A stretch of 64,000 nucleotides of DNA from Xanthobacteraceae bacterium 501b (GTDB lineage Bacteria > Pseudomonadota > Alphaproteobacteria > Rhizobiales > Xanthobacteraceae): contig KB899087.1 of the NCBI GenBank assembly GCA_000378025.1, positions 4,335,501 to 4,399,500 on the forward strand. Direction: 5' to 3'. Below the pieces are notes generated by a model. That model was not told the origin of the DNA and searched no databases. It saw only the letters and a program-made list of their open reading frames with translations. The position numbers and the translations under genes were made by a program. Shown piece after piece: positions 4,231-45,255 of this stretch; position 1 is the stretch's first letter, and every line of letters begins with the position of its first letter.

Positions 4231-7200
4231 CTATGCCACCACCGGCCCGGTGGAGGGCTCGATGTTGACCATGAACGCCTTGAACTCCGGGGTCTCGATG
4301 TTCGCGTCGCCCACGAAGGGGGTCAGCGTGTTGGCGGTGAAGCCCTTGCGGGCGGCGCCGACGAAGCCCCAGTGGATCGGCACGCCGACGATGTGGACGG
4401 TCTTGCCGTCGATCGTCATCGGCTTGATGCGCTTGGTGACGACCGCCTTGGCGTAGAGCTCGCCGCGCTTCGACCACACCCGCACCCAGCCGCCGAGCGC
4501 GATGCCCTTCTCCTTCGCCAGTTCCTCGGAAATCTCGACGAACTGTTCCGGCTGCAGGACCGAATTCACATGGTTGTTCTTGGTCCAGTAGTGGAAATGC
4601 TCGGTGAGACGGTAGGAAGTGCCGGCATAGGGATAAGCCGGATCGCCGATATCGGCGAAGGTCTTCCAGTCGTCGGGGAAGACGCGCGCCACCGGGTTGC
4701 CCCGCACCTTCGGCGCGATGACATTGGCGACCGGGCTCTCGAACGGCTCGTAATGCACCGGGAAGGGCCCGTCCCGCATCATCTTGCGCACCCACAGGCG
4801 GGACGTGCCCTCGGGGTTCATGATGAAGGGACCGACATCCCTGGGCTTGGCGGTGGGCGGAATGTCCGGCACGTCGTAGCCGGTCCATTTCGTGCCGTCC
4901 CATTCGATCAGCTTGCGCGAGGGGTCCCACGGCTTGCCGTCGAGGTCGCAGGAGGCGCGGTTGTAGAGAATGCGCCGGTTCGCCGGCCAGGCGAACGACC
5001 ATTTGAGGAACATGCCGGCGTCGCCGGGGTCGGAATTGTCCCGCCGCGCCATCATGTTGCCGGCCTCGGTCCAGCAGCCGGAGAAAATCCAGCAGCCGCC
5101 GGCCGTGGTGCCATCGTCGCGCATCTGGCCGAAGCCGGACAGTTGTTTGCCGGCTTCCAGCACCTTCTTCGTCGGGTCGGCTGGGTCGAAGACATCGACC
5201 AGCACCGAGCCGTTCATCTCCCGTGCCAGCTCTTCCGGCGTCGGCTCGCCCGGGTCCTTGTAGGACCAGTTGAGATTGACGATCGGGTCGGGGAAGGTGC
5301 CGCCTTCCTTCTTGTAGAGCTCCTTCAGCCGCAGATGGATCTGCGCCATGATCCAGATGTCGGTCTTGGCCTCGCCCGGAGGCGAGCCGCCCGGCCAGTG
5401 CCATTGCAGCCAGCGGCCGGAATTGACCAGCGATCCCTCATCCTCGGCAAAGCAGGTGGTGGGAAGCTGGATCACCTCGGTCTGGATATCGGCCGGGTTC
5501 ACCTTGTTGAAGGTGCCGTGGTCTTCCCAGAAGCGGGCGGTCTCGGTCTGCAGCGGGTCCATGATGACCAGCATCTTCAGCTTGGCGAGGCCGGCGGCGA
5601 GCTTTCCCTTGTCCGGGAATGCCTGAAGCGGGTTGAACCCCTGGCAGAAATAGAGGTTCACCTTGCCCTGCTTCATCATCTCAAAGACGCGCAGCACGTC
5701 GTAACTGGCGACATCGAGCTTGGGCAGGTAGCTGTAGGCCCAGTCGTTCTCCTTGGTGGCAGCGGAGCCGTACATTGACTTCATGAAGCTGACGAAGAAC
5801 TTGCGGTAGTTCTGCCAGTAGCTGGTCTGGTTTGGCCGCAGCGGCTTGAAGGCGCGCGTCGACATATAGGTGGTGAAGTCGGGCTCCTTCTGGGTGGGGA
5901 TGTTGAGATAGCCGGGGATGAGATTGCTCATCAGCCCGAGATCGGTCAGCCCCTGGATGTTGGAATGCCCGCGCAGGGCGTTCATGCCCCCGCCGCGCAC
6001 GCCGATATTGCCCAGGATGAGCTGGAGCATCGCCATGCCGCGAATATTCTGCGCGCCCTTGGAATGCTGGGTCCAGCCGAGCGCATACATGCTCGTCATG
6101 GTCTTGGTCGGGGTCGAGCATTCGCCCACCATCTCGGCCACCTTGAGGAAGGCGTCCTTCGGCGTGCCGCAGATGCGCTCGACCATGTCGGGCATGTAGA
6201 TGGCGACGTGCTCTTTCAGCAGGTTCCACACGCAGCGCGGATTCTGCAGCGTCTCGTCGACCACGGCATAGCCGTCCGGGCCGATCTCGTACTCCCAGGT
6301 GTCTCTGACGTAATCGCGCTTGCTCTCGTCATAGCCGGTGAACAGGCCGTCCTGATAGGCATAGCCCTCGCGCACCACGAAGGTGGCGTTGGTGAAGGGC
6401 TTCACATAGTCCCACTGCACCTTGTCATGGCTGATGCAGTAATTGATCAAGCCCATCAGGAAGGCGATGTCCGACCCCTGCCGGATCGGCGCGTAGAAAT
6501 CCGCCACTGCCGCCGAGCGGTTGTAGCGTGGGTCAACGACGATGAGCTTGGCGCCGCGGGTGGCTTTCGCCTCCGTGACCCATTTGAATCCACAGGGATG
6601 CGCTTCGGCGGCATTGCCGCCCATAATGACCACAAGGTCGGTATTCTTGATGTCCGTCCAGGCGTTGGTCATAGCGCCACGGCCAAATGTTGGGGCGAGA
6701 CTCGCCACCGTCGGGCCGTGTCAGACGCGCGCTTGGTTATCGAACGCTAGTATGCCGGTCGAGCGCACGACCTTGTAGGTCGCGAACGCGGTTTCATTTG
6801 TCGTCGCGGAGGCCGCGAGGAAGCCGGTGGTGAGCCAGCGATTGACCGTCACGCCGTCGGCATTGGTGGCGACGAAATTGGCGTCGCGGTCGTCCTTCAT
6901 GGCGCGGGCGATCTTGTCGAGCGCCACATCCCAGGAGACGGCCTCGAATTTGTCCGAGCCGGCCTTGCGCAGCATCGGCTGGGTCAGCCGGGTCTGCGAC
7001 TTCACGATGTCGCGCAGCGCCGAGCCCTTGGGGCAGAGCGTGCCGCGATTGGTCGGGTGGTCGGCGTCGCCCTCGATATGGACGATGTCGGCCTTCTCGC
7101 CCTTTCGCAGATCACCCTTGGAATAGATGATGATGCCGCAGGCGACCGAGCAGTAGGTGCAGGTGTTTCGCGCTTCCGTGGTGTTCACCAGGTGGAACGG

Positions 7201-10728: not shown

Positions 10729-12036
10729 ATGTCTCACACGGGTCTCGAACTCGCCTTCGGTCGCGGTGCGCTGCACCTCACCTTGCCGCCGGGGGCCAAG
10801 CCGACCGTGCTGCGCAAGGCGGAACTGCCCAAGCTGCCGGACAATGTGGCCGCCATCCGCCACGCCTTCGAGCATCCCGTCGATTCGGCGCCGCTCGCCG
10901 AACTCGCCAAGGGCCGCAAGAGCGCCTGCATCCTCATCTGTGACATCACCCGCCCGGTGCCGAACCGGCTTTTCCTGCGGCCGATGATCGAAACACTGAT
11001 CGCTGCCGGCATTCCTGCCGATGCCATCACCGTGCTTGTCGCCACCGGCCTGCACCGGCCGAATGAGGGCGCGGAGCTGGCGGAACTGGTCGGCGACCCC
11101 TGGGTGCTGGAGACGGTGCGGGTGGAGAACCACTTCGCCCGCGACGAGGCCGCCCATGTCGATCTCGGGGCCACGTCGACGCGCGGAACGCCTGTCTTCA
11201 TTGACCGCCGCTTTGCGCAAGCCGATCTGCGCATCGCCACCGGGCTGGTCGAGCCGCATTTCATGGCCGGCTGGTCGGGCGGGCGCAAAGTGGTGGCGCC
11301 TGGAGTCGCCGGGCACCAGACCATCCGCACCTTCCATTCCGCCCGCTTCATGGAAGACCCGCTGGCGGTGCAGTGCAACCTTGTCGGCAACCCACTGCAC
11401 GAGGAGCAATTGGAGATCGTGCGCAAGCTTGGCGATGTCTACGCGCTGAACACGGTGCTGGACGAGGCGCGCGACCTGGTCTTCGTGTCCTTCGGCGAGA
11501 TCATCGCCAGCCATCTCGCCGCCGTGGCGTTCGTGGAGAGCTCGACCGTCATCGAGGCGCCGCGCCGCTACCACACGGTGGTGACATCTTCAGCCGGCTA
11601 TCCACTCGACAAGACCTATTATCAGACGGTGAAGGGCATGGTGACGCCGCTCGACATTCTGGAGCCCGGCGGCACGCTGATCATCGCCTCGGAATGTTCG
11701 GAAGGCTTTGGCAGCGAGGAGTTCCGCGCCGCGCAGGAGCGGCTGGTGGAACTGGGGCCGGAGCGGTTCCTCGCCACGCTCACCGCCAAGACTCTGGCCG
11801 ATGTCGACGAATGGCAAACCGAGATGCAGCTGAAGCCCATGCGGGTCGGGCGCATCCAACTCCACACCACGGGGCTGACCGAGGAGGAGCGGCGCATCAC
11901 TGCGGTGGAGATCGTCGCCGACATCAATGAGGCGATCGCGGCCAGCCTGCAGCGTTCCGGCGACAACGCGCTCGCCATCATTCCCGAGGGACCCTATGTG
12001 ATCCCGGTGTGCCGCGACCGACAGGCGGCGGCGTGA
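10729..12036 (+). CDS. larA: LarA-family nickel-dependent racemase
   Basis: Member of the LarA family, which interconverts lactate enantiomers or other 2-hydroxyacids by hydride transfer to a nickel-pincer nucleotide cofactor. It is 435 residues. Expected active-site residues are present: Asp72 and Arg75 (CDITRPVP), His109 (TGLHRP), His177 (EPHFMAGWSGG), Lys187, the cofactor-tether lysine (GGRKVVAPG), and His203 (TFHSAR). It is the first gene of larA-larC-larE-larB. The family contains enzymes for many 2-hydroxyacids, so lactate itself is not proven. Its stop overlaps the larC start (GTGA). Confidence 0.9.
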   Translation: MSHTGLELAFGRGALHLTLPPGAKPTVLRKAELPKLPDNVAAIRHAFEHPVDSAPLAELAKGRKSACILICDITRPVPNRLFLRPMIETLIAAGIPADAITVLVATGLHRPNEGAELAELVGDPWVLETVRVENHFARDEAAHVDLGATSTRGTPVFIDRRFAQADLRIATGLVEPHFMAGWSGGRKVVAPGVAGHQTIRTFHSARFMEDPLAVQCNLVGNPLHEEQLEIVRKLGDVYALNTVLDEARDLVFVSFGEIIASHLAAVAFVESSTVIEAPRRYHTVVTSSAGYPLDKTYYQTVKGMVTPLDILEPGGTLIIASECSEGFGSEEFRAAQERLVELGPERFLATLTAKTLADVDEWQTEMQLKPMRVGRIQLHTTGLTEEERRITAVEIVADINEAIAASLQRSGDNALAIIPEGPYVIPVCRDRQAAA

Positions 12037-13559
12037 GGCGCATCCATCTCGACGCGGTGGGCGGCGTTGCCGGCGACATGTTCGTCGCGGCGCTGCTGGA
12101 CGCCTTTCCGGACCTCACCCCCCGCGTGCTGGCGGATGCCCGTGCCGTGCTGCCGGAAGGAGCGGGCACGCCCGTGCTGCGCGAGGGGTTGAGCGGGGGC
12201 ATCGCCGTGCGCCGCTTCGGGCTGGAGGGTGAGGACGCCCATTCTCACGCTCACGCGCATTCCCACACGCACCCTGCCGACGCGGCCCGCTTCCTCAGGA
12301 CCGGGCTTGACCCGGCCACCCAGGCATCCACGGGAGTTCGGGCGGAGGGGCTGGGTCCCCGGGCCGAGCCCGGAGATGAGGGCCGTGATGGGGATGAGGG
12401 AGGGCATGAACACGTCCACCACGCCCATTCTCACACCCACAACGCTCACCCTCCTTCCGCCTGCATGGCCGGGCTTGACCCGGCCACCCAGACTTCGGCT
12501 GCGGTTCTCGTGGAAGCGCTGGTTCCCCGGGTCGAGCCCGGGGGTGAGGGGGGGTGTGAACACGCGCACGCGCCCCACCCCCACGCTCACTCCCACCCCC
12601 ACGCCGGCTCCTATCGCGACATGGTGGACCGCATCGAGGCCGCCTCGCTGAGCGCGGGGACGGCGGGCCATGCGGTGGCGATCCTCGCCCTTCTCGCCGA
12701 GGCGGAGGCCGCCATCCATCGCGTGCCGGTGGAGGAGGTGCATTTCCACGAAATCGCCGACTGGGATTCGCTGCTCGACGTGGTCGCCGCCGGCAGCCTT
12801 GCCGCCGCGCTGGAAGGGGCGGAGTGGACCGTATCCCCCCTGCCGCTGGGCGGCGGGCTGGTCAAGACCCAGCACGGGCTGCTGCCGGTGCCGGCGCCGG
12901 CGACCGCCGCCCTTCTTGCCGACTTCGACTGGCGCGACGATGGCATTGCCGGCGAGCGCGTGACCCCGACCGGCGCGGCGATCCTCAAACATCTGGCGCG
13001 CTGCGGGCGCCCGGCCGGCGGGCGGCTGGTGGTCTCCGGCACCGGGGCGGGCACGCGCGACCTGCCCGGCATGCCCAATATGCTGCGGGCGCTGGTGTTC
13101 GAGGAGACGCTGGCGGAAGCTGAGGTGCTGAGCGGCGATGTGGTGGCGGTGATCGAATGCGAGATCGACGACATGACCGGCGAGGAGATTGGCACCGCCA
13201 CCGAGCGGTTGAGGGCCGAGCCGGGCGTGCTCGATGTCAGCCTCAGTCATCGCTTCGGCAAGAAGGGGCGGCCGGTGGTGGCGCTGCGGCTGCTGGTGCG
13301 GCCGGACTGCATAGACGCGGTGGCGCGGGCCTGCTTCGCCCAGACTTCGACGCTGGGGGTGCGGCTGCGCGAGGAGCGGCGTTTGACACTGAAGCGCACG
13401 GCGGGCGAGAGCGCGGGGGTGGCGGTGAAGCGTGCGGCGCGCCCGGGCGGCGCCACGGTGAAGGCGGAGAGCGATGCGCTCACCGGCGATACGCTGGCGG
13501 CGCGGCGGGCGCTGAAGCAGCGGGCGGAGCGCGGCGACGCGGAGTGTGGCGATGCGTGA
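12033..13559 (+). CDS. larC: Nickel insertion protein LarC with His-rich insert, single-frame form
   Basis: CTP-dependent enzyme that inserts nickel into the pyridinium dithiocarboxylate cofactor. It is 508 residues from GTG 12033, which overlaps the larA stop. The N-terminal HLDAVGGVAGDMF motif and the C-terminal LarC2 domain (ECEIDDMTGEEIG) are in one frame; in Lactobacillus plantarum larC is made by a programmed frameshift. Residues about 69-192 form a large low-complexity insert with clusters such as HSHAHAHSHTH, likely for nickel binding. Within this insert two stretches (about 88-116 and 145-172, including GLDPATQ) are encoded by copies of an otherwise intergenic palindromic repeat. Translation continues through both. 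Confidence 0.9.
   Translation: MRRIHLDAVGGVAGDMFVAALLDAFPDLTPRVLADARAVLPEGAGTPVLREGLSGGIAVRRFGLEGEDAHSHAHAHSHTHPADAARFLRTGLDPATQASTGVRAEGLGPRAEPGDEGRDGDEGGHEHVHHAHSHTHNAHPPSACMAGLDPATQTSAAVLVEALVPRVEPGGEGGCEHAHAPHPHAHSHPHAGSYRDMVDRIEAASLSAGTAGHAVAILALLAEAEAAIHRVPVEEVHFHEIADWDSLLDVVAAGSLAAALEGAEWTVSPLPLGGGLVKTQHGLLPVPAPATAALLADFDWRDDGIAGERVTPTGAAILKHLARCGRPAGGRLVVSGTGAGTRDLPGMPNMLRALVFEETLAEAEVLSGDVVAVIECEIDDMTGEEIGTATERLRAEPGVLDVSLSHRFGKKGRPVVALRLLVRPDCIDAVARACFAQTSTLGVRLREERRLTLKRTAGESAGVAVKRAARPGGATVKAESDALTGDTLAARRALKQRAERGDAECGDA
12295..12380. repeat. REP-like palindrome embedded in larC, copy 1
   Basis: Left half CCGGGCTTGACCCGG and right half GGTCCCCGGGCCGAGCCCGG show the organisation of the CATGGCCGGGCTTG...CCCCGGG...GATGACG intergenic family seen at 39711-39800 and 45162-45255. 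It is in frame and encodes ...TGLDPATQ...GPRAEPGDE between His clusters. Confidence 0.75.
12465..12548. repeat. REP-like palindrome embedded in larC, copy 2
   Basis: ATGGCCGGGCTTGACCCGG followed about 40 nt later by GGTTCCCCGGGTCGAGCCCG. It is similar in sequence, length and reading frame to copy 1, and encodes MAGLDPATQ...VPRVEPGGE. The two copies are 170 nt apart, a multiple of 10 bp but not of 3, so copy 2 is read in a frame set by the sequence between them. Confidence 0.75.
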
Positions 13560-18434: not shown

Positions 18435-18834
18435 GCGGCGCCTCCCGCCTCTGAGGCCCGCCGCGTGCGGGCCTGCGGATTCAAGCATGTCATGTCGGCG
18501 TCATGATCCACCGGGCGGCGTGCCGCTTCAAGCGGCTTTCGCGCCGGGCTGCCCGCGAGCGGTCTGCGCGGGGAGGCGGAGGGGGCCGCCAGACACAAAA
18601 AAGGGCCGGCAATGGAGCCGGCCCTGAAGAGCAATTCGGGGATTGAACCTAGAGATAACGTCAGGCCGGTCCACAAGCACCGCGGGGGGCTGGGGGGCTG
18701 GGAAACCGATGCACTCGCGAACCGGCCCAACGCTATGAAGAGGAGATTGGCCGGCACAAGGGGCGTCGCAACGGCCGAAATCGGGCAGCCTTGTGTTTTC
18801 GGTTAACGAGCGCGTGATCCGGTTGCCGGGGATG
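18435..18834. other. 400-nt intergenic region between the DUF2794 and DUF1223 genes
   Basis: No supported gene. It holds the minus-strand terminator at 18597-18624 and, to its left, the presumed promoter region for the DUF2794-aguBA unit. A G-rich stretch at about 18683-18702 and the remaining sequence up to 18834 show no structure I can name. Confidence 0.5.
18597..18624 (-). terminator. Rho-independent terminator reading leftward
   Basis: Stem GGGCCGGC (18603-18610) / GCCGGCCC (18617-18624) with a 6-nt loop. On the minus strand it is followed by six T residues (18602-18597). It probably ends transcripts of the DUF1223 gene about 210 nt upstream and insulates DUF2794-aguBA. Confidence 0.8.
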
Positions 18835-39654: not shown

Positions 39655-39800
39655 CCGTCATCCCGGCCGCAGCGGACCTTCGGCCGTCCGGGACGACGAC
39701 CGGACGTGACGGCCGTCATGGCCGGGCTTGTCCCGGCCATCTACGTCTGCGGGGCGTCGGCAAAGGCGTGGATCCCCGGGCCAGGCCCGGGGATGACGCC
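39655..39800. repeat. Tandem intergenic palindromes
   Basis: Two units. The first is CGTCATCCCGGCCGC...CGTCCGGGACGACG (39656-39700). The second is GTCATGGCCGGGCTTGTCCCGGCC followed by a spacer and GGATCCCCGGGCCAGGCCCGGGGATGACG (39716-39799). The second is the intergenic parent type of the two copies inside larC. It fills the gap between the convergent deaminase and mmsA genes, so it may serve as a terminator for both. Confidence 0.8.
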
Positions 39801-45161: not shown

Positions 45162-45255
45162 AACGTCATCCCCGGGCTTGGCCCGGGGATCCATGACTTT
45201 GAAGGCGGAGGCAAAGCAAGGCTTGGATGGCCGGGCCAAGCCCGGCCATGACGGA
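45162..45255. repeat. Intergenic palindromic repeat between zntA and argH
   Basis: CGTCATCCCCGGGCTTGGCC...GGGGATCCATGAC, a spacer, then GGATGGCCGGGCCAAGCCCGGCCATGACG. Same family as 39716-39799. It lies between convergent genes and may act as a terminator for both. Confidence 0.8.

Follow-up and report, generated by a model that had tools for sequence, protein, structure and literature searches.

Probable near-neutral capture of REP dimers, in frame, inside the histidine-rich linker of an Ancylobacter LarC

Two palindromic repeats lying in frame within the larC gene of an Ancylobacter genome are best understood, with a probability that we place at about 0.88, as the outcome of near-neutral in-frame capture of REP dimers inside a disordered, His-rich linker of the LarC protein. 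The evidence for this reading comprises the identity of the repeat, the open reading frame, the absence of the insert from homologues, the prediction of disorder, the weak constraint on the encoded residues, the states of decay in sister species, and comparable captures in the CobN, GlcE and PolA linkers. The features concerned are located as follows in the window, that is, the whole stretch of 64,000 nucleotides that was analysed.

12033-13559, + strand: larC, a single open frame with LarC1 and LarC2 domains, its GTG start overlapping the larA stop
12240-12272, + strand: His-rich cluster 1, a sequence feature, repeat family D2
12293-12381, + strand: REP dimer copy 1, 89 nt, with both tags CCTC...GAGG; reads ...LRTGLDPATQASTGVRAEGLGPRAEPGDEG, residues ~87-117
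12405-12449, + strand: His-rich cluster 2, a sequence feature between both repeats
12461-12549, + strand: REP dimer copy 2, 89 nt, left tag decayed to CTGC; reads ..CMAGLDPATQTSAAVLVEALVPRVEPGGEG, residues ~143-173; alignable to the one copy present in G029, G014 and G013
12561-12602, + strand: His-rich cluster 3, a sequence feature
39714-39798, + strand: REP dimer of the CGTC-tagged type, outside genes
45164-45253, - strand: REP dimer of the CGTC-tagged type, outside genes

The gene is part of a selD-larA-larC-larE-larB cluster, and its product is recognised by family matches to NCBIfam TIGR00299 (169.7 bits, cut-off 90) and NF052512 (97.5 bits, cut-off 50) as well as to Pfam PF01969. LarC, LarE, LarB and SelD pass their NCBIfam cut-offs; LarA stays below its own (335.8 bits vs 460). 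Three His-rich clusters and the two REP repeats alternate between the N-terminal part of LarC and the LarC1 core. Elsewhere in the window, an Rfam match to SECIS_3 at 6668-6726 (- strand, 86.4 bits, ~2.8 kb from selD) suggests a putative selenoprotein gene, and the sRNA BjrC174 is matched at 18599-18818 (- strand, 70.6 bits).

The original prediction had placed two copies of a repeat in frame inside larC and further copies between genes near 39.7 and 45.2 kb. The larC copies are positioned as claimed and the frame runs uninterrupted across both; compared at 12296-12382 and 12464-12550, they are 79% identical over 87 nt, lie 168 nt apart and share the same phase. Four occurrences of the core GGCCGGGCTTGACCCGGCC are found in the window at up to 3 mismatches vs 0.19 expected, the match being exact in larC copy 2 and having one mismatch in each of the other three copies. 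The two copies outside larC are intergenic as described, with no open frame of at least 40 codons on both sides. An artefact of assembly or base calling, which had been named as a finding that would speak against the whole proposal, can be rejected with near certainty, given that three named Ancylobacter assemblies carry the repeat in the same linker, that the larC copies differ from one another by 21%, and that the frame is open.

The larC repeats consist of CGTC/CCTC-tagged REPs joined head to head as dimers; passages of PMC3733652 have described this superfamily before, its intragenic copies included. The consensus from 54 own-genome copies consists of CCCTCATGGCCGGGCTTGACCCGGCCACCCAG, a variable spacer and CTGGGTCCCCGGGTCAAGCCCGGGGATGAGGG; it begins with CCCTCA, ends with TGAGGG and has a CGTCA...TGACG subtype alongside, and the sister type tagged CGTC...GACG includes both window copies outside larC. 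A terminal CGTC, CCTC or TGTC tag is present at both ends of larC copy 1 and at the right end only of copy 2. The stem of 8-9 bp with a loop of 4-5 nt is recognised by eye as (A)TGGCCGGG-CTTGA-CCCGGCCA(T), and the CCA or CCCAG that follows the stem-loop in the 54-copy consensus is, likewise by eye, a CCA-type tail. A strict dimer pattern, which leaves single REP units outside the count, returned 51 rows in the own genome (some places appearing on both strands) vs 0 in the backward control. REPIN/RAYT systems are defined by a GTAG tag and a Y1_Tnp gene in the genome; the larC repeats lack this tag. PF01797 (Y1_Tnp) gave no match in 30 of 30 genus genomes, in a search whose positive control matched 5 of 14 known genomes, and mobilisation by a RAYT via PF01797 in Ancylobacter was dropped on this account. 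Assignment of the repeats to an Rfam family was dropped as well, no match above the gathering score covering the larC repeats.

A genome-wide count of intergenic against in-gene copies, as the original prediction had envisaged, places three of 68 repeat places of the own genome (whole or partial) inside genes, two in larC and one in cobN. The total combines 54 places with 14 found by the dimer pattern and is to be read as at least 68, the first search having scored 40 of 110 candidates. A place was counted as in-gene when an uninterrupted frame ran through it with coding signal in both flanks, the signal being derived from codon statistics trained on 30 long window ORFs and not from a gene caller; the cobN copy failed with short flanks and passed with longer ones. 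The larC and cobN copies lie wholly inside real genes with the frame kept, as is characteristic of intragenic REPs. Loci L160, L165 and L166 have a coding score on both sides and were left out of the count of captures; by eye, they resemble opposite-strand shadow frames. Among 26 regions picked from the other frames, L289 alone scored on both sides; it coincides with L165, seems to be located upstream of polA and was likewise left out. Empty sites were sought for 30 REP dimers by way of joined flanks, and none of the 16 junction-spanning alignments obtained was clean to the base.

The distribution of the repeat within the genus was examined in 30 Ancylobacter genomes, in which G000 denotes the genome of the window. 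LarC is present in 16 of them and all 16 linkers were read. Two copies are found in G000, one whole copy in each of G029, G014 and G013, a single copy without its left end in G017, and the right half only in G005 and G027; the remaining nine linkers (G021, G025, G024, G011, G020, G007, G009, G012 and G002) are free of the repeat, and most of these are still His-rich, those of G002 and G012 being His-poorer. Homologues lacking one or both inserts had been predicted and do exist. The same alignment check fell short on its other part, in that the His linkers vary too much to be aligned and larC therefore yielded no clean, base-exact empty boundary; the empty site in glcE is clearer. A wider LarC motif scan, in which 73 of the 80 loci retained from 478 confirmed ones were read, located a repeat at 3 of 73 loci, all from Ancylobacter: A. 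vacuolatus, A. rudongensis and A. polymorphus. In a tree of PolA and CobN, all carriers of the larC repeat belong to one clade (support 0.998, inner support 0.55 to 1.0). The repeat-free G002 falls inside this clade, so that a loss in G002 must be assumed, which counts against the reading favoured here.

The two copies in G000 could have originated from tandem duplication of one 168-nt unit, consisting of repeat and His cluster, as opposed to two insertions, and we consider this to have slightly less than even odds. The spacing of 168 nt in phase is as duplication would have it, the His-coding DNA around both copies is alike (D2), on its right side copy 1 is flanked by DNA that by eye resembles the right flank of the single G029 copy, and the spacer of G005 is similar to copy 1 as well as to copy 2 (0.767 and 0.733, values that 3 and 7, respectively, of 630 unrelated pairs from the genome reach). 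However, the similarity between the spacers of the two copies is only 0.60, a level attained by 175 of the 630 unrelated pairs, and each copy finds its closer counterpart in another genome: copy 1 matches G017 larC (0.867) and copy 2 matches G029, G014 and G013 (0.806, 0.90 and 0.933), with 0 of 630 unrelated pairs as alike in every case. Spacers were obtained from 38 of the 54 own copies, 36 of them outside larC, and those of G005 and G027 were cut by hand-chosen motifs.

A structure prediction with AlphaFold2 (29 sequences; mean pLDDT 79.4) assigns values below 50 to residues 70-81 and 83-179, and both larC repeats are thus placed in a predicted disordered linker of residues 70-179. The pooled pN/pS of the repeat is 0.80 (pS 0.149, pN 0.119; G000 copy 2, G029, G014 and G013), compared to 0.13 for the LarC core (pS 0.334) and 0.27 for the N-terminus in the same four sequences, these values being based on 27 repeat codons and non-independent pairs with no significance test. 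Constraint on the larC repeat at the codon level looks weak. The pS of the repeat is nonetheless less than half of the LarC core value. Such a deficit is not expected under pure neutrality and, within the bounds of 27 codons in four sequences, counts against the near-neutral reading.

The low pS speaks for a rival reading in which the element is kept for a hairpin in the lar mRNA that affects pausing, stability or the differential expression of larA-larC-larE-larB, as does the folding of both larC copies into long RNA hairpins, at -55.7 kcal/mol (z -2.9) and -51.9 kcal/mol (z -2.1). Their z-scores are, however, weaker than those of the more distinctive intergenic copies of the window (-4.1 and -5.2), and the hairpin was not kept in three relatives, G017 having lost the left end and G005 and G027 the left half, so that we judge retention for the hairpin improbable. 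Similarly improbable, in our assessment, is co-option of the repeats to set the spacing of the His clusters and so tune the buffering of nickel by LarC. Alternation of the repeats with three His clusters, in a protein that by its family match inserts nickel, speaks for it; against it stand the repeat-free LarCs (9 of 16 in the genus), most of which retain His-rich linkers, the pN/pS of 0.80, and the similar repeats in CobN, GlcE and PolA. The original prediction had left the choice between a mere spacer and an altered nickel buffering: the former agrees with a linker that is predicted to be disordered and with constraint that is weak at the protein level, and the latter finds no support. Since REPs also occur in the CobN, GlcE and PolA linkers, and three more repeat families in the CobN linkers, the linkers appear to tolerate insertions and nothing points to nickel.

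Near-neutral capture is thereby placed in the wider setting of these other proteins. Eight of 20 long frames picked among the GLDPATQ matches listed lie in cobN (four), glcE (two) and polA (two); the remaining 12, to which L160, L165 and L166 belong, do not enter the count. The cobN linkers were delimited as linker 1, before FYRS, and linker 2, before LxxYRxHL (loci L175-L204), and the polA loci are L235-L264. An in-frame REP is present in cobN linker 1 of G000, G017, G013, G020 and G002 (5 of 28 linkers read, from 30 loci); in glcE of G013 and G027 as a whole copy and of G002 as the right half (23 of 30 read); in polA of G013 and G027, and of G016 as another subtype (22 of 30 read); and, as a CGTC REP, in cobN linker 2 of G023 and G016 (14 of 30 read). 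The NCBIfam cut-offs are passed by G000 CobN and G013 PolA, one protein each, and G013 GlcE is just under its own (263.1 vs 284 bits). Peptides resembling GLDP...PGDE are read from the captures in larC, cobN linker 1, glcE and polA; that all captures use one frame was considered and discarded, since in cobN linker 2, where G023 and G016 hold a CGTC copy, a different frame is read.

Three other dispersed inverted-repeat families, b (PSPNPLP...PSPRRGEG), c (LILRC...LAALAPQDE) and d (ASGRSGIA...SPSAGMT), also occur in frame. As judged by eye, among the 28 cobN linkers 1 that were read, family b is found in 11 genomes and c in two, with seven linkers short and empty and three left unassigned; remnants of b lie beside the REP in G000 and G020. 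Linker 2 has b in four genomes, c in one and d in two, glcE has b in two and polA has b in one, again by eye. For the nine inserts tested, the searched loci gave matches at 30 to 110 binned places each, some of them orthologous sites of the same gene; 2 to 26 of these places fell in own-genome regions. When linker 2 is taken by itself, four repeat families (b, c, d and the CGTC REP) are in frame in 9 of the 14 linkers read.

It is conceivable, although we think it rather unlikely, that the linkers of LarC, GlcE and PolA and the two of CobN serve as landing pads, at least four unrelated families having been recaptured there within the genus under the guidance of short target matches. GAGG is found at the right junction of aligned empty alleles in 5 of 6 cases for glcE, 3 of 4 for cobN and 3 of 6 for polA. 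Of the 27 polA loci that lack a REP at this position, 13 have a stretch near the REP core GCCGGGCTTGACCCGG at the insertion point (seven with one mismatch, six with two); for comparison, 470,985 bp of the 80 LarC loci contain 1, 1 and 7 matches at 0, 1 and 2 mismatches. Both are leads only, because the polA stretches go back to common ancestry, such matches could be picked freely in aligning, and the figures carry no test of significance. The same 13 polA loci encode AGLDP-like residues where G013, G027 and G016 hold REPs.

The course of events envisaged under near-neutral capture is that REPs would arrive widely in the genome, most in-gene arrivals being removed. Selection would purge insertions that break the frame or hit a folded domain, so that only linker copies survive. 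The REP insertion into larC may have occurred at the base of the group of A. polymorphus, A. vacuolatus and A. aquaticus; copies that keep the frame in a disordered linker would persist and then decay, and the peptide encoded by the insert would be a tolerated spacer without a nickel role. A single enzyme shows the empty, filled, doubled and decayed states of a mobile palindrome, and the fate of an insert can therefore be followed. What stands out as most novel is that four repeat families have colonised a small set of linkers again and again. If it holds, several families keep adding disordered sequence to a few linkers in free-living bacteria, and the evolution of linkers by repeat capture becomes directly testable. 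Were the linkers indeed landing pads, captured DNA would be reworked into linker protein and repeats would constitute a regular source of new disordered sequence.

S. novella is now placed in Ancylobacter. Passages of Di Nocera et al. 2013 (PMC3733652) list S. novella among REP-rich species and describe CCTC variants, the lack of a linked transposase and copies within genes. The larC repeats share with the CGTC-tagged REPs of these passages the terminal CGTC/CCTC, the 8-9 bp stem, the 5-nt loop, the CCA-type tail and the head-to-head dimers, along with a mostly alphaproteobacterial distribution and intragenic copies, some of which lie in DNA polymerase I or come as two inserts per gene. They differ in the genes concerned: LarC, CobN and GlcE are absent from those passages, the main text is without "cobN" or "chelatase", and the supplementary gene list, outside that check, may name them. 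Within the open-licence literature no paper was found on REPs in LarC or CobN, and nothing relevant on histidine-rich LarC or on palindromes in Ancylobacter.

The likeness to protein-invading palindromic elements of Rickettsia, drawn in the original prediction, holds, in that RPE-4 and RPE-6 of Rickettsia conorii are equated with CGTC repeats in the passages of PMC3733652 and hence belong to the same superfamily; in-frame palindromic inserts in many proteins are common to both, RPE-1 being a longer insertion according to the same source, and the likeness to RPEs is one of description and not of sequence comparison. GTAG REPINs with RAYT transposases (PMC3116915, with the tag from PMC3733652) similarly comprise inverted REP pairs with a spacer but are distinguished by the tag, here CGTC/CCTC, and by Y1_Tnp (PF01797), without a match in the 30 genomes. 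Enterobacterial small mobile repeats, as portrayed in passages of PMC2759123 and PMC2229807, are likewise small, mobile and inverted and can be intragenic; they reside in other hosts, and are likened by description, not sequence. In-gene capture of REPs is thus a known kind of event, of which the larC case is a new and well-resolved member.
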